A program made the position numbers and the translations under genes. Under the pieces are notes generated by a model. That model did no database searches, was not told the origin of the DNA, and saw only the letters and a program-made list of their open reading frames with translations. A stretch of 47,700 nt of DNA. It comes from Verrucomicrobiota bacterium (GTDB lineage Bacteria; Verrucomicrobiota; Verrucomicrobiia; Verrucomicrobiales; Akkermansiaceae). Shown in pieces: positions 6,472 through 46,912 of this stretch. The stretch is taken from positions 1 to 47,700 of the forward strand of contig JAGWXY010000008.1 of assembly GCA_018969605.1 (NCBI GenBank), given 5' to 3'. Every line of letters begins with the position of its first letter. Position 1 is the stretch's first letter.

Positions 6472-7134
6472 TCAGGATGGGTTGATGAAATGCGCGAGAA
6501 TTTTCGCCGCCACCTCATCCTGCGGAGCGGTGGCATCGCAAGCAAAAAGCCGATTCTGGTCGCGATAATGCGTGATGACAGGCAATGTGAGTTTCTCGAA
6601 CTCATGGTGGCGCTTGCGGAAATTTTCTTCGCTGTCGTCAGCGCGCGATTGCGCCACCTGTCCGCAGACCGGGCAATGCTTGCCGTCGCGCAGTTGGCGA
6701 ATCTGGCCGGTCCAGCGGCAATCGGGGCATTCAACGCGCTGGCTGATGCGCTCGAGAAGCACATCGAAGGGCACTTCAAGCGATAGCGCGCAGTCGATCG
6801 CAAGGCCGCGTTGCGAAAGCCACTCATCCAAAAAAACCGCCTGCGGCAAACTGCGTGGGAAACCATCGAGCACCCATCCGCCCGGTTGCTTGGCAAGCCA
6901 ATCGGCGAGGATGCGGCACATCAGGTCATCGGGCAGATAATGACCGCGGGCAAGAATTGGCGCCGCAGTTTTTCCAAGCTCGGTTTGATTTTCGACCTGC
7001 TCGCGCAGTACCGCGCCGGTGCTGAGGTAGCCAAGACCAAGACTTTCGGCGAGGCGCTTGCCTTGGGTTCCCTTGCCGGATGCCGGCGGGCCAAGCAGCA
7101 CGATGCGCAGAGGTCTGGCCGTGGGATCGGTCAA
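6472..7134 (-). CDS. adk: Adenylate kinase with zinc-binding LID
   Basis: 220 residues. It interconverts ATP + AMP and 2 ADP in the cytoplasm. The P-loop is GPPASGKGTQ (residues 15-24) and the AMP-site motif DGFPRSLPQA is present. The LID has two Cys pairs, VECPDCRW and HCPVCGQ, so it should bind zinc, as in Gram-positive and many other adenylate kinases but unlike E. coli. The ATG overlaps the secY stop by 4 bases (ATGA), so translational coupling to secY is likely; map follows 5 bases later. Confidence 0.95.
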   Translation of the reverse strand: MTDPTARPLRIVLLGPPASGKGTQGKRLAESLGLGYLSTGAVLREQVENQTELGKTAAPILARGHYLPDDLMCRILADWLAKQPGGWVLDGFPRSLPQAVFLDEWLSQRGLAIDCALSLEVPFDVLLERISQRVECPDCRWTGQIRQLRDGKHCPVCGQVAQSRADDSEENFRKRHHEFEKLTLPVITHYRDQNRLFACDATAPQDEVAAKILAHFINPS

Positions 7135-8633
7135 TGGAGCTTGTTGTAAATGTAAGCCGTGATGCCGAACACGATCAGCACCGCGATCACCGTCCAGAGA
7201 TACACCAAGGCAGTGCGGGATGCCGCGTTGCCACCGGGCCCAAGGCGGTCATAGCGACCCTTGAGTTTGCCTTTGCGAAGGAAGCCGTCGTAGTGCTTCT
7301 GCAGCAACTGGGTTTCGACCTGGCGCATCACATCGAGCACGACGCCGACCATGATGAGCAGCGAAGTGCCACCAAAGAAATGCAGCACGAGTGATCCGGG
7401 TGGAAGTCCGACCACCTTGCCAGTGAGCACTGGTAGCACGAAGAGCGCGGTGAGGAAGATCGCACCGGCAAAGGTGAGACGGGTCATCGTGAAGTCGAGG
7501 AAATCGGCGGTCGGTTTGCCGGGACGCACACCAGGGATGTATCCACCGTTGCGCTTGAGGTCCTCGGATATCTGCGAGGGCTGGAACATCATCGCGACCC
7601 AGAAGTACGAGAAGAGGAAAATTCCAAGTCCGCCGAGTACGTAGTACCAGAGCCCGCCGCCAACGAGTTCACCGTAGAGTTTGGTTGCCCATGGCTGACC
7701 CGCAAAAAACCACTGCAGCATCATCGGCGGCAGCGAAAGCACGGCCGAGGCGAAGATGATCGGCATCACGCCGGCGTAGTTGACCTTGAGGGGAAGGTAT
7801 TGCGTCTGACCGCCGAATTGTTTGCGGCCGACCACGCGCTTGGCGTACTGCACTGCGACGCGGCGCTGGGCTTGGGTGATGGCGATGGTTGCGGCAATGA
7901 CGAGCAGCAGGAGCACGATCATCACAACCATCATGATCGCGTTGTATTTGCTCACCCCTTCACCGTTAATGAAATATTTCCATGCTTGGATCAGTGCTCC
8001 AGGCAGTGAGGAAATCACATTGACCGTGATGATGATCGAGGTGCCATTGCCAATGCCCTTGTCGGTGATCTGATCGCCGATCCACATCAGCAGGACCGTG
8101 CCAGCCACAATAGTGACGACCGTGAGGAACATCCATGTGTAGGAGGGATCGGGAACGAGGTTTCCGAATTTCTCGATGCCGGCCATGTAGGGGATCTTGC
8201 CCGGATTGGTGAGCGACTTCGCAACGAAGAAACCCTGCACGAGAGCGATGCCGATCGTGATGTAGCGGGTGTATTGGGTGATTTTTTGGCGTCCGCCATC
8301 TTCACGCGCGAGACGCGAGAGCTTTGGCACGACCGCAGTGAGCAACTGCACCATGATCGATGCCGAGATGTAGGGCATGATGCCGAGTGCGAAGATGCCC
8401 GCCTGTTGAAGGCCGCCGCCGGAGAAAACCGTGAGCAGCGCGGTGATGCCACCGGTGGGACTCTTGGGGTCCTGCATCTGAAGGTTATCGAGCCATGCCT
8501 TGATGACTGTGGCATCGACGCCGGGCAGCGTGATGTGCACGCCGAGGCGGATGATGACGATCAGTGCGAGGGTGAAGAGAATGCGGTCCCGGAGCTCCGG
8601 GATTTTCCAGGTGTTGGCGAAGGCGGAAATCAT
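7131..8633 (-). CDS. secY: Preprotein translocase subunit SecY, with an extra C-terminal helix
   Basis: 500 residues against about 440 in E. coli. It is the channel of the Sec translocon in the inner membrane. The start at 8633 gives the usual SecY beginning (FANTWKIPELRDRILFT). Ten canonical helices can be followed, including the plug region FSGGGLQQAGIFALGIMPYI and the C5 loop QPSQISEDLKRNGGYIPG. Where SecY normally ends, after the basic GFLRKGKLKGRYDR, the chain continues for about 40 residues with another hydrophobic segment, LVYLWTVIAVLIVFGITAY, which should be an eleventh helix and would put the C-terminus on the periplasmic side. Confidence 0.95.
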   Translation of the reverse strand: MISAFANTWKIPELRDRILFTLALIVIIRLGVHITLPGVDATVIKAWLDNLQMQDPKSPTGGITALLTVFSGGGLQQAGIFALGIMPYISASIMVQLLTAVVPKLSRLAREDGGRQKITQYTRYITIGIALVQGFFVAKSLTNPGKIPYMAGIEKFGNLVPDPSYTWMFLTVVTIVAGTVLLMWIGDQITDKGIGNGTSIIITVNVISSLPGALIQAWKYFINGEGVSKYNAIMMVVMIVLLLLVIAATIAITQAQRRVAVQYAKRVVGRKQFGGQTQYLPLKVNYAGVMPIIFASAVLSLPPMMLQWFFAGQPWATKLYGELVGGGLWYYVLGGLGIFLFSYFWVAMMFQPSQISEDLKRNGGYIPGVRPGKPTADFLDFTMTRLTFAGAIFLTALFVLPVLTGKVVGLPPGSLVLHFFGGTSLLIMVGVVLDVMRQVETQLLQKHYDGFLRKGKLKGRYDRLGPGGNAASRTALVYLWTVIAVLIVFGITAYIYNKLH

Positions 8634-8677
8634 GGGGATCTCAGGGGAGTTCGTGCTTGGGTGGTGACGCAAGACGA

Positions 8678-13624: not shown

Positions 13625-14359
13625 TCAGTTTCTGTTGCTGGGGCGGCGCTCGCCACCACCACCACCTCCGCGCGGGCCGCGAGGTCCACGCTCACCGCGG
13701 TCGCCGCGGTCGCCTTGAGGTCTGGCAGAAGCATCTTCTTCCTTTTTGTTGACCCAGCATTTCACGCCGATGATGCCGTAGACCGTGCGGGCTTCGGCAA
13801 AGCCGTAGTCGAGCGGCACGCGCAGCGTTTGAAGCGGCACTTTGCCTTCGCGGTAGCCTTCGGCACGGGCGATGTCGGCACCGCCGAGGCGGCCGGCGCA
13901 ACGGAGGCGGATGCCTTCGGCACCGAACTCCATGGCGGTTTGCAGCGCGCGCTTCATGGCACGGCGGAAGCTGATCCGGCGCTCAAGCTGCACGGCAATT
14001 TGCTCGGCGACCAACTGGGCATCGAGTTCCGGCTTGCGGATTTCGATGATGTCGATCTTGACCTGGGCACCTTTGCAGAGGTCGGAAATTTCCTTGGTCA
14101 TCACTTCGATTTCCTTGCCTTGGCGGCCGATGATGAGGCCGGGGCGTGAGGTGTGAAGGGTGACGCGGACGCTGTTCCAGGCGCGCTCGATGACCACGCG
14201 GGCAAGGCCTGCGTTCTGGAGCTTGCGCTTGAGGTAGCCGCGGATTGACAGGTCCTCGTGGAGCTTGTCGGTGTAGTCTTTGCCGCTGGCATACCACTTC
14301 GAGCGCCAGTCCTTGTTGACCGCGAGGCGAAATGCGATTGGATTTACTTTTTGGCCCAT
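13625..14359 (-). CDS. rpsC: Ribosomal protein uS3 with Gly/Arg-rich C-terminal tail
   Basis: 244 residues. It begins MGQKVNPIAFRLAVNKDWRS; the KH domain is seen around RPGLIIGRQGKEIEVMTKEI and the C-terminal domain ends near GIIGVKCWVNKKEE (about residue 210). The last 32 residues are a disordered basic tail with RGDRGERGPRGPRGGGGGGE. S3 lies at the mRNA entry of the 30S subunit next to S4 and S5; rpsE of this genome carries a similar Gly/Arg-rich extension. It is 31 bases after rplV and has no visible Shine-Dalgarno sequence. Confidence 0.96.
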   Translation of the reverse strand: MGQKVNPIAFRLAVNKDWRSKWYASGKDYTDKLHEDLSIRGYLKRKLQNAGLARVVIERAWNSVRVTLHTSRPGLIIGRQGKEIEVMTKEISDLCKGAQVKIDIIEIRKPELDAQLVAEQIAVQLERRISFRRAMKRALQTAMEFGAEGIRLRCAGRLGGADIARAEGYREGKVPLQTLRVPLDYGFAEARTVYGIIGVKCWVNKKEEDASARPQGDRGDRGERGPRGPRGGGGGGERRPSNRN

Positions 14360-14390
14360 GTGTGCTGAGGGGTGGGATTGTGAGGGATGA

Positions 14391-14816
14391 TTAGGCTTGT
14401 GGTTCCGCGGCTGGGGCGGCTTCGGTGGTGGTCTCCTGCTTTTCGGCGGCCGGCTTGCGCGGTGCCTTCTTGCGTTTCTCGGGAGCGGAGCCCACGAGGG
14501 TGATGGAAATGTGGCTGCTGTGGCGGATGATCGGACCCGCGGATCCCTTAGCGCGCGGCTTGAAGCGGCGGAGCGAAGGAGCCTTGCCGATCACGGCTTC
14601 CTTGACGACCAGCGAACCGGCATCGAGGGAGAAATTGTTTTCGGCATCGGCGATGGCTGTCTTGAGGGTCTTGCCGATGAGCTGCGCGGCCTTCTTCGGG
14701 GTGAAGGTAAGGATGTCGAGCGCGCTCGATACCGGCAGGCCTTGAATTTCGCGGGCGACGTCGCGGGCCTTTTTGGGCGAGAGGCGAACGAATTTGGTGG
14801 TGCTTTTGACTTCCAT
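14391..14816 (-). CDS. rplV: Ribosomal protein uL22 with C-terminal extension
   Basis: 141 residues; E. coli L22 has 110. The core (VRLSPKKARDVAREIQGLPV to the family motif RRFKPRAKGSAGPIIRHSSH) is complete and carries the hairpin that reaches into the exit tunnel. About 30 extra residues follow, first basic (PEKRKKAPRKPAAEK), then acidic and Ala-rich. It is separated from rpsS by an inserted gene for a predicted exported protein, although rpsS and rplV are normally adjacent. Confidence 0.95.
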   Translation of the reverse strand: MEVKSTTKFVRLSPKKARDVAREIQGLPVSSALDILTFTPKKAAQLIGKTLKTAIADAENNFSLDAGSLVVKEAVIGKAPSLRRFKPRAKGSAGPIIRHSSHISITLVGSAPEKRKKAPRKPAAEKQETTTEAAPAAEPQA

Positions 14817-14837
14817 GGGAGGCGGGCGTGAGGGGTG

Positions 14838-15569
14838 TTACTGCTCTTGGGCTTGTGTTTCGAGATGGGCGAGGTCGCCGACTTTGGGTGAGTCTGCGGC
14901 GTTGTTGAGGGTTTCGACAAACAATCCGCTGACGCCCTTGCGGACATCGGCGAGAATGGCTTTTCCGTAGGTTTCCTGACCGCGCATGAGGCGGAAAGTC
15001 ATGCCGATTTTCGCACCTTGGCTTTCGCCGATGTTGAGAACTAGCATGCCGCTTTCCTGATCGTGGCTGACGATGCGGGCTTGCTGCAGGGTGCCGGACC
15101 GGATTTCGGGACGGGGCTTCTGGCGGAGACCAAGGGCGGCGTCAAGCTCTCTTAGCGAAGTTTCGATGCGAAGGCGCGCATCCGGATCGGAAACGACCGC
15201 TTGGCGAAGGAAATCGTTGACCGCTCCGTTGAGGCGGATGGCGGAAGCCTCGAGGTGCGTGATGCGTTCGTTGGCGATTTGAAGATCGGCGGCGGCTTGC
15301 ACGAGGCGGTCATCGCCACCGTCGAGGAGGTTCTTGCCGAGGGCGGCGAGTCTTTCGCGGACTTGGGCGAGTTGCGCGGCCGATTGCTTTTCGCCGCGGT
15401 TGGCTTCGGCGAGGCTTTGCTGGAGGGTTTTGTTCTGCTGTTGGAGTTCGAGAATCGCCTCCTGCAGCTGAGCGGCACTGGCGGCCTGGGCGCGACACAT
15501 CCCGGCAGTGGCCGCGAGCCCGAGGGCGGCGGCAACTGCCTTGTAAAGGAATGTGTGGCGTGAGGACAT
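14838..15569 (-). CDS. Predicted exported coiled-coil protein inserted in the S10 operon
   Basis: 243 residues of unknown function. Residues 1-28 look like a signal peptide (basic start, AVAAALGLAATAGMCRAQA, cleavage after an Ala). Residues about 30-125 are rich in Gln, Glu, Leu and Ala with heptad spacing (EAILELQQQNKTLQQSLAEA; LQIANERITHLEASAIRLNG), a probable coiled coil. From about residue 160 a beta-rich part follows (GMLVLNIGESQGAKIGMTFR, then GKAILADVRKGVSGLFVET, SPKVGDLAHL), with G-x-x-x-G-A-x-x-G-M as in small barrels of MreC/FlgT-like envelope proteins; that likeness is only by eye. It lies 24 bases after rpsS and 21 before rplV, so it must be co-transcribed with ribosomal proteins. 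Only intact genes surround it, so this is not a recombination scar. Confidence 0.8.
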   Translation of the reverse strand: MSSRHTFLYKAVAAALGLAATAGMCRAQAASAAQLQEAILELQQQNKTLQQSLAEANRGEKQSAAQLAQVRERLAALGKNLLDGGDDRLVQAAADLQIANERITHLEASAIRLNGAVNDFLRQAVVSDPDARLRIETSLRELDAALGLRQKPRPEIRSGTLQQARIVSHDQESGMLVLNIGESQGAKIGMTFRLMRGQETYGKAILADVRKGVSGLFVETLNNAADSPKVGDLAHLETQAQEQ

Positions 15570-15593
15570 CGTGCTGCGGGTGTGCTGCTTGGC

Positions 15594-15866
15594 TTACTTC
15601 TTGCCGATACCGCCGTGCTGGCGGAAAATGCGGGTCGGGGCAAACTCACCGAGTTTGTGGCCAACCATGTTTTCGGTCACATAGACCGGCACGAAGGTTT
15701 TGCCATTGTGGACGGCGAAGTTGTGACCGACGAAGTCCGGGGTGATCATCGACTTGCGGCTCCATGTCTTGATGGGCTTGCGGTCGGATCCGGCGTCGGC
15801 GACGGCGTCGATCTTGGCGAGAAGCTTCTGATCGACGAAGGGGCCTTTCTTGAGTGAGCGTGGCAT
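15594..15866 (-). CDS. rpsS: Ribosomal protein uS19
   Basis: 90 residues (E. coli 92). It begins [20 protein letters not shown] and has the S19 signature [27 protein letters not shown]. It binds 16S rRNA in the 30S head with S13. The next gene downstream is not rplV but the inserted exported-protein gene. Confidence 0.97.
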
Positions 15867-15906
15867 GGAATCGTTGCTTGGTTAAAAGTGAAAGGTTGGG
15901 CGGGCG

Positions 15907-16746
15907 TTACTTCTTCTTGTGGCGGGACTCGACGATGAAGACGCTGGTGGTCTTCTTGTGGTTGCGGGTCTTCTGGCCCTTCGCGTGACCCCAGGGGCTG
16001 AGAAGGTGCTGGCGACCACCACCGGATTTCGATTTGCCCTCACCACCACCGTTCGGGTGGTCGACGGGGTTCATGGTCATGCCGCGGACGGTTGGGCGAA
16101 CGCCCTGCCAGCGGGTGCGGCCGGCCTTGCCCGAGGTTTCATTCATGTGGTCGCGGTTGCCGACTTGGCCGATCGTGCAGAAGCAGCGGTCGTTGAAGCG
16201 GCGAATTTCGCCGGAAGGCATTTTCACGAGTGCCCAGCCGCCATCGCGGTTGGAAAGCACGGCGAGCTGACCGGCGGCGCGGGCGACTTTGCCACCATTG
16301 CCCGGGATGAGCTCGATGTTGTGGATCGAGGTACCGAGTGGCACGGCGCTGAGCGGCATGGCATTGCCGGTCTTGGGAGCGACATTTTGGCCGGAAACCA
16401 CGGTCGAGCCGACTTCAAGGCCGAGCGGCGCGAGGATGTAGGACTTTTGTCCGTCCTCATACTGGATCAGCGCGATGCGGCAGGTGCGGTTCGGATCGTA
16501 CTCGATGCCGATGACCTTCGCCGGGGCGTCGTGACGGCCGCGCTTGAAGTCGATGAGGCGATAGTGACGCTTGTGACCACCGCCGACGTGGCGGCAGGTG
16601 ATGCGGCCGGTGTTGTTGCGGCCACCCGAGCGCTTGAGCGGAACCAGAAGGCTCTTCTCAGGCTTGCTCTTGGTGATCTCCTCGAAGGACGGGAGATTCT
16701 TGTAGCGTGCGGAGGGGGTGATTGGCTTGAAATTTTTCAGTGGCAT
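15907..16746 (-). CDS. rplB: Ribosomal protein uL2
   Basis: 279 residues (E. coli 273). Near the peptidyl transferase centre and essential for subunit association. It begins [21 protein letters not shown]-like core and the signature region [20 protein letters not shown], followed by GEGKSKSG, are intact. The conserved His of the PVDHPHGG motif is Asn here (DHPNGG). 40 bases before rpsS. Confidence 0.97.
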
Positions 16747-26558: not shown

Positions 26559-27704
26559 ATGGCTGACAAACGCGATTACTACGAAATTCTGGGAGTTTCC
26601 CGCGACGCGAGCGCCGACGAAATCAAGAAGGCCTACCGCAAACTCGCGGTCAAATTTCACCCGGACAAGAACCCCGGCGATCATACGGCCGAGGAAAAAT
26701 TCAAAGAACTTGGCGAGGCCTATGAAGCCTTGAGCGATGCCGACAAGCGCGCGGCCTACGACCGCTACGGACACGCGGCATTCTCGAATGGTGGCGGTCG
26801 TCCCGGCGGTGGTTTCCACGACCCGATGGACATGTTCTCGCAGGTCTTTGGCGGTGCCTTCGGTGGTGGCTTCGAGGAATTTTTTAGCGGTGGCGGCGGT
26901 GGCGCCAGGCGCAAAAGCTCCGGCAAACAACGCGGTAGCGACCTGCGCTATGATCTGGAAATCTCGCTCGAAGAAGCCGCGCGCGGTGTTGAGAAAGAAC
27001 TCGAGATCGAACGCTACATGCCCTGCGAAGCCTGCGACAGCAAAGGCACCAAAGGTTCGGGCGGCGTGAAAACCTGCCAAACATGCGGTGGCCGCGGCGT
27101 CGTTTCGCGCCAGTCCGGCATCTTCATTCAACAAACCACCTGCCCGGAATGCCGTGGCGCAGGTGAAACGATCAGCGATCCCTGCAAGGCCTGCAAAGGC
27201 GAAGGACGCGTGCAAAAGGAAAGCCGCATCAAGCTGCGCATCCCCGCCGGCGTGGATACCGGCACGCGCCTGCGCTCGACCAGCAATGGCGACGCTGGCG
27301 TGCGCGGTGGCCCGGCAGGCGACCTGTATGTGTTCCTGCATGTCCGCGATCACGACATCTTCGAACGCGACGACTCCGACCTCTTTTGCGAAGTCCCCCT
27401 CCCCTTCTCGACCGCCGCACTCGGTGGCGAGTTGAAGGTGCCGACGCTCGATGGTCAGTCATCAATCAAGATCCCCGCCGGCACTCAAGGCGGCACGGTT
27501 TTCCGCCTGCGCGATAAGGGCATACCCACACTTTCAGGCGGACGCCGCGGTGATCTGAACGTCCGCGTGCAAGTCGAGGTGCCCACCAAACTCAACAGCG
27601 ATCAGCAGGAAAAGCTGCGCGCGTTTTCTGAATCGATCGGCGGTCACAACTCGCCTATGCAGGAAGGATTTTTCGAAAAGGCGAAGCGCTTTTTTGATCT
27701 CTGA
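26559..27704 (+). CDS. dnaJ: Chaperone DnaJ (Hsp40, type A)
   Basis: 381 residues (E. coli 376). J domain at residues 1-70 with HPD ([11 protein letters not shown]) that stimulates DnaK; a Gly/Phe-rich linker about 75-130 ([16 protein letters not shown]); four zinc-binding CxxCxGxG repeats: [32 protein letters not shown]; then the substrate-binding C-terminal domains. Complete type A DnaJ. Between grpE and rsmE, probably one operon (gaps of 5 and 6 bases). Confidence 0.96.
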
Positions 27705-43181: not shown

Positions 43182-46100
43182 TCAGGGGCCTGTCACGCGC
43201 AATCGCAGAAATTTTGCCCCACCCTCGATCGGTACAGAAACTTCGCGGCGCCGGTAGTTGGCGGGCACCCCGCTGGTATCGGCCGAATCCGTGGCAGTAA
43301 GCACTGACCAGTTGATCGAGGAAAGGTTTGTAGAGAGCAAGGGCACAACTGAAAAACCCGCCTCCGGGTCGGTCCTTTGTAGCCATTGCATAACCAGACG
43401 GCTGGCTCCGCCGACATTGGTCTGCCAAGAGGAAACGAGCCCGCCCTCGCCGACCATGGGGTTGCCGCCGAGGGCGTATTCCATGCGGTGGCTGAAACCG
43501 TCCCCGTCGGGATCTTCGTCCCAGCGGGGATCCGAAGCCGTGGAGGGCAAGGGCTCGGGGAGTCCGTTGCTTTCCCACCACTCGGCGGAGACGGGGTAAC
43601 TCGTAATCGAATAGGTTCCCGCTAAATCCTTGAAGGTGAGGCGGTATCGACCGCCTTTCGTCACCGCCGCAGTGATGTTGCTCGGGCCGGAGCGGACTGC
43701 CACGCCCGCGTTGCTGTTGCCGGCACTCCAACCCCAAGAGTCGCCTCCGGTCCAGTTGGAGTTGTTGGTCGCTTGGGAAAACTTGAATTGGATATTGGTC
43801 GTGTTGCTGAACGTTCCCGTCCACTCCCACTGCATCCTCTGGTCGCTCCACGTCATGTTGCTGGCGTTCGGCTGCCAGAACGGCAAAGGTCCCGTGTCGC
43901 CGGTCACCGTCATCCGCTTGGGTGCAGCAGCGCTGTCGGATGCCTGCGGGTTCATGAACGTGCCGTTCGCGTTGGTGAATCTGGTGAATTCCGCGAGATT
44001 TGACCACCCGTCCCCGTCGGGGTCGGCCTCGCCCGCGGCATCGCCGCCCGTCAACCCGTGGTAGGCGATCCAGGCGGCGTAGGTGGCATGGTATCTGATC
44101 TCGTAGGACAAAGTTTTCTCGTTGAAAAGGAAGCGGTAGATGCCGTTGCCCTGGCCGAAATCATTGCTAATGTTAGATCCGCCGGGATCGCCGATGCCGT
44201 CCATCGGGGCGTTGTCACCCCAATTCTCCGACCAGTTCCCGACGGTGAACTTGAACTGGCCCGCCACGCCGCCACGCCGGGGCAAATCCAGCATCCACCA
44301 ATTGGCTCCGATGTAGCCCATGGGGTTCGCGGAGGGGCTGAATCCGCCGTATTGATTGCCCGCCAGATAAACCGCTGCACGGTCGGGCACATGCGGATCG
44401 CTGCCCCGGGCGAATTCCTGCAGGTTGGTGAAAGTATCGCCATCCGGATTAGCGTTGAAATCATTCACGCCGTGGAAAACCGCCCAATTCGTGCGGTTGC
44501 TATCGAACACGTCGAGGTTGGTGTTGGGTAAAAAGAACGAGTAGCTCGATTCGAAATTCGTGAGATTGAGAGAAAACCGGAGATAGGCTCCCGCGGGATT
44601 GGTGAAGAACGGACCCGGGATGCTGTTGGAGAGGAAGGAGAAGGAGAAGGAGGAGGAGGAGGAGGAAGCCGGATCGACGGCCCAGGCGATGTGCTGGACC
44701 ACGGGATTGTTCGACGAGGCGCGCAGGGTATGGGTCGTCCCGTTGTAGGTCACCGAGGCAACATTCTTATTCAGCGGGTCGAGCCCGTTCTGGTATTCGA
44801 AGAGATTGGACAGACCGTCGATGTCGTCATCGGATGACCCATCGGAGGCACCCGTCATGGCCTGCCAGCCGTCCGGCACTCCGTCCCCACCGGCGTCCTC
44901 CGTGAACCTTCCAGTCGGCGCGGGCGTCCTCGCCAAAACCACGACACTGTGTGCCGCCATCGGCACGTCGGCGCGGACGGCACTGCCTTGGAAGTTCGCC
45001 GTGACCGCGTGGCCGGCGGGACCAACGTTGCCGAAATCGGATCCGTAGACGCTCCAGTCGGAATTGAATTGGACGTACCAAGTGCCGGTCGTGGGGAAAG
45101 GACAACTGATGTTGAGGGTTGTGGCGGAAAAGTTGAACAGCACAACCAGGTTGTCGGCATTGCTGGTGCCCAGACGCCAGTAGGCCATCAGGTCCTGCTC
45201 GTCGTTGGAAAAGCCGGCCGACGCATCGAGATTCGAGTTTTGCAGGGCGGGCAAAAGCTCCCGCATCTCAATGAGGTCGCGGTGCGCGCGGAAGATCCGG
45301 TGCTGTCCGGTTGCGGTGCGCCAATCGAGGGGCGAGGAGTCGCTGAAAGTCCCGGTGGCGTGAAACTCCTGACCCATCCAAAGCATCGGGGTGCCAGGCG
45401 CGGTGAGGGTCAGGGCCGCATTGAGCAAAGATTTCTTGCGCGCCGTCTTGCCGGCGGGATCGGCAGGAACCATCCGGTCCGCCAAACGCATGCCGCGATT
45501 GAGGTCGCCGGACTTGTCGTGGTTGTCGGTGAAAATGACGCGGTAACCGGGCGGCTCGGACCAGCCGCTGACCTTGCCAAGGATACGGCCTAGGTCGGGC
45601 GTGGCCGAGGCGAGTTGCGGTGTGATCTCGTTGTGGAAACTCGTCTGCCAATGGCCGTCGAAACTGTCGGCCACGTCATCGACCCGCAGCTGGTCAAAGA
45701 AACCTCCCTGCGGATACCAGGAACCATCCGGTCGCACGGTAAGCATGTCCGCATCCTCCGCCACGCTCCAGCGCCCGGGATACTGTTCGTGGATCAACCG
45801 GTTGATCTCCATGAGCAAGCTCTTGCCTTCCGGCAGCAAGGTCTGGGGGTTGTTGACAATGGTTTGGGTGGCGTTGGCGTCATAGCCGAGAATGTTCTGC
45901 GGAGAATCCCACCGGAATCCGTCGACGCGGAAATTATCGAGCAGGCTCTTGATATTCTCGCGGATGAAGCGCCGGACTTCGGGCTGCGAGTAGTTTGGCC
46001 GCCGACCCCATTTAGTCCAACCTTGAGAATTATCAGGGTAGAAATAGATGTTGTTGGTGCCGTCGAATTCCCACAGTCCGTCGCCCGGCGGGTTCCAATG

Positions 46101-46805
46101 ATTGTGCACCACATCGAGCTGCACCTTCATACCGCGAGCATGGGCCGCCTTGACGAATCGTTTCAGTGCGTCCGGACCGCCGTATGCGGACTCTATGGCG
46201 AAGAGGTGCTCCGGATTGTAGCCCCAGCTGAAATCGCCGCCGAATTCGTTGACCGGCATGAGGGCGATGACGTTCACCCCGAGCCTCTGCAGGTAGTCGA
46301 GCCGTCCAATGGCATCGTCAAATGTGTAGGGTCGGCCGTCGCTAGGGTTGGGATCATAAAAACTCCCAATGTGCATTTCGTACATCACCTGCTGGCTCAC
46401 CGGAATGTTGGGACTGCTCACGTTGCTCCAATCAAAAGCGTTGTGGTCGTAGATGACGGAATTCCCGTTCCGCACCCACACGGCGCGCGGGTCATGCTTC
46501 CACGTGCCAATGGCGTTCCCGCTCCACCGCAGGAAATATTTGTATTCCTGCCCGGGCCGCGCGGCTGAGACAGTCGCCGTCCAGTAGCCGGTCGCGGTGT
46601 CCTTGGTCATGGCCTGATCACCCCAACCGTTGAACTCACCCCGCACCGTCACATCGGTGGCATTGGGCGCCCAGACGCGGAAAGTCACTCCGGTGACAAT
46701 TGTCCCGCTTTTGTTGACGATGGCGCCCAGAGGTTCCTGACTGCGCGCGGCATTCGCAAAGACCAAACAAACAAAAATGATCCTGAAAAAAAAGCGCATA
46801 CGCAT
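43182..46805 (-). CDS. Secreted GH13 alpha-amylase-like enzyme, multidomain
   Basis: 1207 residues. Signal peptide (residues 1-22, RFFFRIIFVCLVFANAARS), a CBM48-like domain (TFRVWAPNATDVTVRGEFNG), then the GH13 barrel with all four conserved regions: DVVHNH (231-236), GFRWD (nucleophile Asp300), a Glu in SVAEDAD (acid/base Glu350) and FTDNHD (Asp430). The layout resembles branching enzymes and maltogenic hydrolases. After a beta-sandwich, four D-x-D-x-DG calcium-type repeats with N-L-x-E-Y/F (near 640, 820, 960 and 1130) alternate with two SusE/SusF- or X25-like starch-binding modules (FKFTVGNWSENWG; IQFKFSQATNNSNW). The end (KFLRLRVTGP) is typical of secreted verrucomicrobial proteins. I chose the ATG at 46805 for the signal peptide; another lies two codons later. 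It stands alone, with no sugar transporter near it. Confidence 0.9.
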   Translation of the reverse strand: MRMRFFFRIIFVCLVFANAARSQEPLGAIVNKSGTIVTGVTFRVWAPNATDVTVRGEFNGWGDQAMTKDTATGYWTATVSAARPGQEYKYFLRWSGNAIGTWKHDPRAVWVRNGNSVIYDHNAFDWSNVSSPNIPVSQQVMYEMHIGSFYDPNPSDGRPYTFDDAIGRLDYLQRLGVNVIALMPVNEFGGDFSWGYNPEHLFAIESAYGGPDALKRFVKAAHARGMKVQLDVVHNHWNPPGDGLWEFDGTNNIYFYPDNSQGWTKWGRRPNYSQPEVRRFIRENIKSLLDNFRVDGFRWDSPQNILGYDANATQTIVNNPQTLLPEGKSLLMEINRLIHEQYPGRWSVAEDADMLTVRPDGSWYPQGGFFDQLRVDDVADSFDGHWQTSFHNEITPQLASATPDLGRILGKVSGWSEPPGYRVIFTDNHDKSGDLNRGMRLADRMVPADPAGKTARKKSLLNAALTLTAPGTPMLWMGQEFHATGTFSDSSPLDWRTATGQHRIFRAHRDLIEMRELLPALQNSNLDASAGFSNDEQDLMAYWRLGTSNADNLVVLFNFSATTLNISCPFPTTGTWYVQFNSDWSVYGSDFGNVGPAGHAVTANFQGSAVRADVPMAAHSVVVLARTPAPTGRFTEDAGGDGVPDGWQAMTGASDGSSDDDIDGLSNLFEYQNGLDPLNKNVASVTYNGTTHTLRASSNNPVVQHIAWAVDPASSSSSSFSFSFLSNSIPGPFFTNPAGAYLRFSLNLTNFESSYSFFLPNTNLDVFDSNRTNWAVFHGVNDFNANPDGDTFTNLQEFARGSDPHVPDRAAVYLAGNQYGGFSPSANPMGYIGANWWMLDLPRRGGVAGQFKFTVGNWSENWGDNAPMDGIGDPGGSNISNDFGQGNGIYRFLFNEKTLSYEIRYHATYAAWIAYHGLTGGDAAGEADPDGDGWSNLAEFTRFTNANGTFMNPQASDSAAAPKRMTVTGDTGPLPFWQPNASNMTWSDQRMQWEWTGTFSNTTNIQFKFSQATNNSNWTGGDSWGWSAGNSNAGVAVRSGPSNITAAVTKGGRYRLTFKDLAGTYSITSYPVSAEWWESNGLPEPLPSTASDPRWDEDPDGDGFSHRMEYALGGNPMVGEGGLVSSWQTNVGGASRLVMQWLQRTDPEAGFSVVPLLSTNLSSINWSVLTATDSADTSGVPANYRRREVSVPIEGGAKFLRLRVTGP
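44628..44668 (-). repeat. 41-base pure purine/pyrimidine tract coding for Ser/Phe repeats
   Basis: A run of 41 purines on the plus strand (GGA, GAA and GGAGAA units) within the GH13 gene encodes a Ser/Phe tract (six Ser, then FSFSF; residues 714-724). Units are 3 or 6 bases, so slippage would keep the frame and change only linker length. Confidence 0.7.
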
Positions 46806-46813
46806 ACGAGAAA

Positions 46814-46819
46814 GATCTA
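46814..46819 (-). promoter_or_regulatory. Candidate -10 box of the GH13 gene
   Basis: TAGATC on the minus strand, 8 bases before the ATG at 46805. TTGACG lies upstream, but the 14-base spacing is too short for a normal -35 box, so the promoter is uncertain. Confidence 0.3.
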
Positions 46820-46912
46820 GGTTTACGATCACCCGTCAAGCCGATGCAGCAGACAAAGATGCAAGTAATACCAAAGCCCCGTAAATATTGGACATTAAAT
46901 ATCGGCGATTTA

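Follow-up and report, generated by a model that had tools for sequence, protein, structure and literature searches.

A Probably Exported Helix and Beta-Barrel Protein Is Encoded between rpsS and rplV in the S10 Operon of Many Verrucomicrobiota

Introduction

Few gene orders of bacteria are as conserved as that of the S10 operon, and nearly all bacteria have rpsS next to rplV. Non-ribosomal genes inside ribosomal-protein clusters are well known from the spc part, where secY, adk and map are widespread among bacteria; secY is an envelope gene. In this work we describe a gene that resembles these three in being a non-ribosomal member of a ribosomal-protein cluster but differs from them in that it sits in the otherwise ribosomal S10 part, between rpsS and rplV, and is known here from one phylum, Verrucomicrobiota.

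A lineage-specific protein of the same superphylum, the PVC signature protein (CT421.2 homologues), was described with a length of about 53 to over 80 aa (PMC3444138), whereas the homologues of the embedded gene product are at least 108 aa long. Several described proteins of the cell envelope resemble the embedded protein in fold or build. FlgT makes the periplasmic H ring of the Vibrio flagellum, as stated in PMC7693769, and TsaP is presented in PMC10653833 as a stabilizer of the PilQ secretin. The barrel of the embedded protein resembles the C-terminal domain of FlgT, which comes first by VIA-align Z for both of our models, nearly tied with F1-ATPase barrels; the protein is unlike FlgT in its long helix ahead of the barrel and in the S10-operon location of its gene. 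TsaP is the best PDB profile match of the barrel; unlike it, the embedded protein is without LysM, and the window holds no adjacent pilus genes. MreC is similar in its export signal or membrane anchor, helix and beta-domain, with weak matches, but the source genome has a distinct MreC gene. Our literature search on the operon, the phylum and signature proteins found no description of the embedded gene; most subscription papers lie outside the coverage of this search, and its outcome is weak evidence.

The Embedded Gene and Its Neighbors

The window, i.e., the whole stretch of 47,700 nt that was analyzed (contig JAGWXY010000008.1, positions 1–47,700), belongs to a 2.43 Mb assembly of an Akkermansiaceae bacterium (GCA_018969605.1) that is 98.7% complete. 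Its minus strand carries a ribosomal cluster with rpsL, rpsG, fusA, the S10 and spc genes and secY, and the gene under study lies in this cluster (Table 1). The first-pass annotation had placed a reading frame of 243 residues between rpsS and rplV, with gaps of 24 nt after rpsS and 21 nt before rplV, and both the ORF coordinates and the Pfam matches of the neighbors confirm this. It had also called the gene "in frame" with a tight operon; the common strand and the tight spacing hold, but the expression is meaningless between separate genes. Its remark that no mobile element is nearby agrees with our Pfam scan of 10 window proteins, none of which was such an element (two had no match). Same strand, tight spacing and conserved place (see below) characterize the gene as a non-ribosomal member of the S10 operon.

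Table 1. Positions in the window of the embedded gene, its neighbors and the parts of the encoded protein
Feature	Position	Strand	Basis or remark
Embedded gene	14838–15569	(-)	243 aa, ATG start; probable exported helix and beta-barrel protein
rpsS (S19), upstream neighbor	15594–15866	(-)	Pfam E 1.8e-37
rplV (L22), downstream neighbor	14391–14816	(-)	Pfam E 5.2e-33
N-terminal leader, about residues 1–27, probable Sec signal peptide	15489–15569	(-)	Sequence and alignment A1
Long helix, residues 32–123, probable coiled coil	15201–15476	(-)	AlphaFold, 10-residue blocks 31–120 at pLDDT 83–96
C-terminal beta-barrel domain, about residues 156–239	14853–15104	(-)	AlphaFold model, fold and profile searches
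secY, same cluster	7131–8672	(-)

The embedded ORF had no Pfam or NCBIfam match above the curated cut-offs. Sub-cut-off matches to phage scaffold, ZapB, EzrA, SMC and other proteins in both databases were regarded as coiled-coil noise; those listed with a cut-off fall below it. When 32 homologues were scanned with Pfam, Phage_scaffold was the commonest (8 members) and FlgT_C the third (5) among the families listed. PDB sequence matches to 1ukf, an avirulence protein (E 0.59), and to SigA (E 0.83) were taken as chance. No RNA elements were found across the window at Rfam gathering scores.

Coding Status, Codon Bias and Transcription Signals

In 13 pairwise comparisons of 12 genomes (L005 and L132 give identical values and were counted as one genome), dN/dS of the embedded ORF was 0.096–0.283, compared with 0.00–0.144 for rplB, rplV, rpsC and rpsS. 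With the two closest relatives left out, identity of the embedded protein was 0.69–0.76 vs 0.94–0.97 for rplB. The protein evolves far faster than its neighbors, yet it is constrained. The low dN/dS and the homologues at this position in many genomes show that the ORF is not a chance reading frame but a real coding gene under purifying selection.

Codon bias toward ribosomal genes was 0.591 for the embedded ORF and 0.61–0.84 for 21 translation genes. This value exceeds those of 29 of the 30 other window ORFs of at least 100 aa, some of which are probably spurious; the sole other ORF with a higher value (26559–27704) is DnaJ-like as read from its sequence. Neither promoter-like sites nor coding-strand terminator-like sites were detected within positions 14300–16000, where four terminator-like sites, all on the non-coding strand, were found vs 3.8 expected. 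The place in the S10 operon together with the absence of such signals from this part of the window suggests that the protein may be made in step with ribosomes. The idea of the first-pass annotation that its amount might follow growth rate thereby has indirect support, from the missing signals and from a codon bias just under that of the translation genes. In relatives, the gap ahead of the gene reaches up to 120 nt, so that there is room for a promoter.

Layout of the Encoded Protein

The AlphaFold model (40 sequences) contains helices at residues 7–22, 32–123 and 129–145, followed by six strands within residues 163–236. The coiled coil and beta-rich end read from the sequence in the first-pass annotation agree with this helix and these C-terminal strands. 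Mean pLDDT of the model is 86 and its pTM is 0.42; therefore, the relative arrangement of the parts is not fixed. A second model, made for an Akkermansia muciniphila protein from 33 sequences (pLDDT 74), resembles the first in build, but its helix is divided into two. The same parts are recognized in alignment A1 of 32 homologues from the order Verrucomicrobiales, where a leader is followed by a middle rich in helix and then by a conserved C-terminal part, in which four columns are invariant.

The claim that the protein is exported is supported by sequence layout only, the leader having been read from the sequence. We looked for a hydrophobic stretch, defined as mean hydropathy of at least 2.0 over 13 residues within the first 90 residues, taking the longest possible start codon as the start of each homologue. 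It was present in 42 of 54 homologues from outside the order, compared with 612 of 2160 shuffles, in 32 of 56 homologues within the order and in none of 21 translation proteins used as controls. At the looser threshold of 1.6, there is little discrimination (shuffles reach it in 1010 of 2200 cases). In a few homologues (L258, L265, L201, L253) the stretch lies past residue 55, and either the start was called too early or the leader is missing. In some lineages (e.g., L208, L218, L221) the N-termini look like uncleaved anchors.

It should be mentioned that short versions of 108–130 aa, comprising only the leader and the barrel, occur in families f7, f9, f13, f14, f16 and f17 (L173, L175, L180, L182, L183, L188, L189, L191, L193, L194, L198, L200, L201, L203, L209, L220). 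The homologue of G176 (f14) has 116 aa, or 181 aa from a longer start; that of G167 (f41), with 129 aa, is also short. Because one clade keeps only the leader and the barrel, the barrel is probably the core of the protein. The layout common to the homologues is a leader, an optional helix and a barrel.

The Barrel and Its Nearest Known Proteins

VIA-align placed 8z5n_0 and 3w1e (FlgT) at ranks 1 and 2 for both models, with Z of 11.1 and 10.4 for the first and 11.1 and 10.6 for the second; 8z5n_0 is a chain of the LPHT-ring entry that we take to be FlgT from its length. F1-ATPase barrels were close behind (best Z 9.6 and 10.3, respectively). In Foldseek, 8z5n_0 ranked first for the first model (E 1.5e-4), followed by 3w1e (3.5e-4); for the second model, 8z5n_0 was again first (E 3.8e-5), with an ATP synthase chain second (1.2e-4) and 3w1e third (2.4e-4). 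Whole-chain TM-scores in Foldseek were low (0.26–0.28). The models thus support the class of the barrel well, while FlgT as its nearest relative is nearly tied with the F1-ATPase barrels. A shared fold alone is no proof of function.

Sequence comparisons of the barrel point in a similar direction, though weakly. Pfam FlgT_C was matched weakly by 18 of 80 barrels (best E 0.0028) and not by the window's own barrel, which matched no Pfam family; on single barrels, the unrelated KIF2A-like family (0.00023) and the proteasomal OB domain (0.00095) did better than FlgT_C. A profile of the 80 barrels had TsaP (3jc8_Ta) as its best PDB sequence match, with a whole-sequence E of 1.6e-5; this match is composed of stretches 318–356 and 367–402, the better of which alone has an E of 0.014.

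We considered whether the embedded gene could be one of these known genes itself. FlgT was ruled out, because the flagellar P-ring gene FlgI was not found in the source genome (98.7% complete), which therefore has no such flagellar rings. The gene is not a whole TsaP either, since LysM is missing: it was not among the seven Pfam families that the embedded protein matched at an E of 1 or less, nor among the first 25 of 58 Pfam families over 32 homologues. Nor is it the MreC of this genome. The embedded protein did not match the MreC barrel core PF04085, and a canonical MreC is encoded elsewhere, at G000:C40. Secretins are also present in the source genome.

Conservation within Verrucomicrobiales

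A homologue was found in 56 of 59 Verrucomicrobiales genomes searched, the source included; the three genomes without it are 59–84% complete. The first-pass annotation had made its reading depend on whether close relatives keep the gene in the same place. In all 56 genomes read, an ORF of 234–322 aa (longest start) lies directly upstream of rplV, and it is preceded by whole or partial rpsS in 55 of them; in the remaining one (L043) the contig has only a short stretch ahead of the ORF. A set of 80 named loci, which overlaps with these 56 genomes, gave a similar result. Four of them (L113, L119, L131, L168) end before rplV, and 75 of the 76 that could be judged have the ORF between rpsS and rplV, including records labelled Akkermansia muciniphila and Verrucomicrobium sp. 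In the exception, L170 (labelled Verrucomicrobiales bacterium), neither rplV nor rpsC nor a homologue was found in the 3.7 kb that follow rpsS. As far as read, the position of the gene is fixed in Verrucomicrobiales.

Distribution in the Phylum

We then surveyed the region ahead of rplV across Verrucomicrobiota, the phylum to which the homologue search was confined. Alignment A1 matched 153 of 288 phylum genomes, a count that includes paralogues and misses some carriers. The sample taken outside the order comprised 99 genomes: a first set of 54, of which 47 had an A1 match, and a second set of 45 that were absent from the list of matches. Of these, 53 and 43, respectively, yielded rplV. A candidate had to be at least 80 aa long and to end not more than 260 nt before rplV or not more than 60 nt inside it. 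The sample was not random, and the counts below are not frequencies.

In 54 of these 96 genomes a homologue lies beside rplV: in 32 it is located between rpsS and rplV, and in 22 directly before rplV with rpsS absent from the stretch read. The homologue is lacking at rplV in 42 genomes, 29 of which have rpsS and rplV together, while in the other 13 rpsS is also absent from the stretch read. Carriers make up 41 of 53 genomes in the first set and 13 of 43 in the second; these 13 had been missed by the phylum search with A1. Of the positives, 51 rest on a match at E 1e-3 or better to A1, which was built solely from the order, and three (G113, G110, G143) on alignment A3, in which they are not themselves included; many other positives are part of A3, which makes the values they obtain with it circular. 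G160, whose candidate has an A3 E of 0.001 and ends 248 nt upstream of rplV, was counted as lacking, and so was G308. In G308 (L274:3829–4404), the rpsS–rplV gap of 555 nt contains a 127-aa ORF without a match, perhaps a decayed copy.

The survey of the rpsS–rplV gap, which the first-pass annotation had proposed, shows that the homologue is common across the phylum, though not universal. Because 42 of 96 genomes lack it at rplV, the gene is dispensable in many lineages. To follow its history, we used a quick maximum-likelihood tree of rplV and rpsC (111 rows, unrooted, with 32 of 108 inner branches open). Carriers occur in each of its three largest groups (34, 32 and 45 rows); two subgroups (7 and 10 rows) have none. 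The presence state requires 15 changes on this tree, whose root was not inferred, so that gain and loss are not separable by the number of changes. We infer one early gain and many losses, as it is unlikely that this gene was gained at this junction more than once. The order (56/56), the phylum (54/96), dN/dS and the tree give strong support, well beyond the family, to the earlier suggestion that the position is stable and selected.

Split of the Operon at the rpsS Junction

In 35 genomes rpsS was missing from the stretch read (618–5434 nt), and in 22 of them the homologue has stayed before rplV. We searched for rpsS in 18 genomes without rpsS ahead of rplV and found it elsewhere in 17, of which 14 are carriers. 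This rpsS was directly preceded by rplB in all 17 and was not followed by rplV within about 1.5 kb (16 genomes) or 0.5 kb (L284). In the other half of the split operon, the homologue stands directly before rplV. In G146, with a 618-nt stretch at a contig end, rpsS was not found anywhere in the genome. The S10 operon of the 17 genomes is split at the junction of rpsS and the embedded gene. The split state requires three changes on the tree, and the 32-row split clade has a support of 95 (SH-aLRT).

The split (loci L257–L273 and L277–L293) extends throughout this clade and apparently also occurs outside it, in f46 and f26; L170 likewise stops after rpsS.

A Paralogous Family outside the Operon

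A related family with a membrane anchor, a coiled coil and the same barrel is encoded elsewhere, on source contig C20 and in other genomes. It forms tandem pairs at L294:2574–4297 (source contig C20), L299:2964–4929, L295:3077–4919 and L301:2156–3865; the pair of L301 (same family, genus code g18) is located near an nth-like gene and secG. We considered whether the embedded gene had moved elsewhere in non-carriers and rejected this for the five non-carrier genomes checked (L323–L327), as their off-operon matches fit a model of this membrane-anchored family better than A1; the comparison is indicative only, the model (15 members) and A1 being of differing breadth. A carrier, L328, also has such a paralogue, which supports the reading of the off-operon matches as paralogues.

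Possible Function

The barrel is of a kind seen in periplasmic rings; together with the leader and the long helix, it leads us to infer a periplasmic docking or scaffold protein. The interpretation that we prefer, and to which we give about an even chance, is that the gene encodes a Verrucomicrobiota envelope protein that has been in the S10 operon since early in the phylum, is made in step with ribosomes and docks on an envelope partner. An envelope gene would have joined the operon early in Verrucomicrobiota. Its product would be exported by Sec to the periplasm; in some lineages, an N-terminal helix that is not cleaved may keep it on the inner membrane. The long helix would drive oligomerization, and the barrel, of the FlgT-C/TsaP-C/MreC type, would dock on a cell-envelope partner. 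As the gene would be carried on the S10 transcript, supply might rise as growth rate and envelope area increase. The first candidate partners would be the wall-synthesis machinery or outer-membrane rings of the secretin type; such candidates exist, since the source genome has secretins and a separate MreC. A bolder version is less likely than not: ribosome production would set the supply of an envelope component built into the S10 operon, with envelope building hard-wired to growth rate on one transcript, and export might also tether the mRNA of the ribosomal proteins to the membrane while it is translated. The 29 of 96 genomes with rpsS and rplV but without the gene, and the 13 more without both the gene and nearby rpsS, count against strict coupling to the ribosome.

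The same 29 genomes fit an explanation in which the gene is a frozen hitchhiker with a function unrelated to ribosomes, which entered once, came under a strong constitutive promoter there and was retained because its removal would put an essential operon at risk. The 15 changes on the tree, the fast evolution of the protein and the paralogous family of the same layout outside the operon point in this direction, too. However, in 22 of 35 genomes without upstream rpsS the gene is still found with rplV, all 56 order genomes read have kept it, and purifying selection means that its product matters; we consider this explanation unlikely. It is improbable that the protein is a wall-synthesis factor acting like MreC, with a barrel that regulates peptidoglycan synthases. 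Foldseek matched MreC (2j5u, E 6.3e-3 for the first model and 1.2e-3 for the second), five of the 80 barrels matched it in Pfam (best E 0.0064), and there was a weak profile match to 9dvb (E 0.19), but FlgT came ahead of MreC in the fold searches, as did TsaP in the profile search, and the canonical MreC is encoded elsewhere in the genome. Periplasmic chaperones of Skp-like action have a general build of helices and a barrel, which the embedded protein shares, and secY lies further down the same gene cluster. A periplasmic chaperone or export helper, Skp-like in action (kinship to Skp is not claimed), whose supply matches the export flow through SecY, would account for both; as no chaperone family was among the Pfam matches listed and the short versions are without helical arms, we regard this as quite improbable.

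The gene of a protein that is not ribosomal and is probably exported has been kept in the S10 operon across much of a phylum, and with rplV where the operon broke. This retention hints that ribosome and envelope production may have a need in common. A link of envelope growth to ribosome supply becomes testable in Akkermansia, from the human gut, and in Verrucomicrobium spinosum, for which PMC12283558 describes targeted mutagenesis and gives 100 essential proteins of unknown function. The gene is also a marker for phylum history, and it shows that a clean break of the operon at the rpsS junction is possible.

As a separate observation, the window encodes at 43185–46832 an alpha-amylase-like protein of 1216 aa with CBM48 and a leader-like start.
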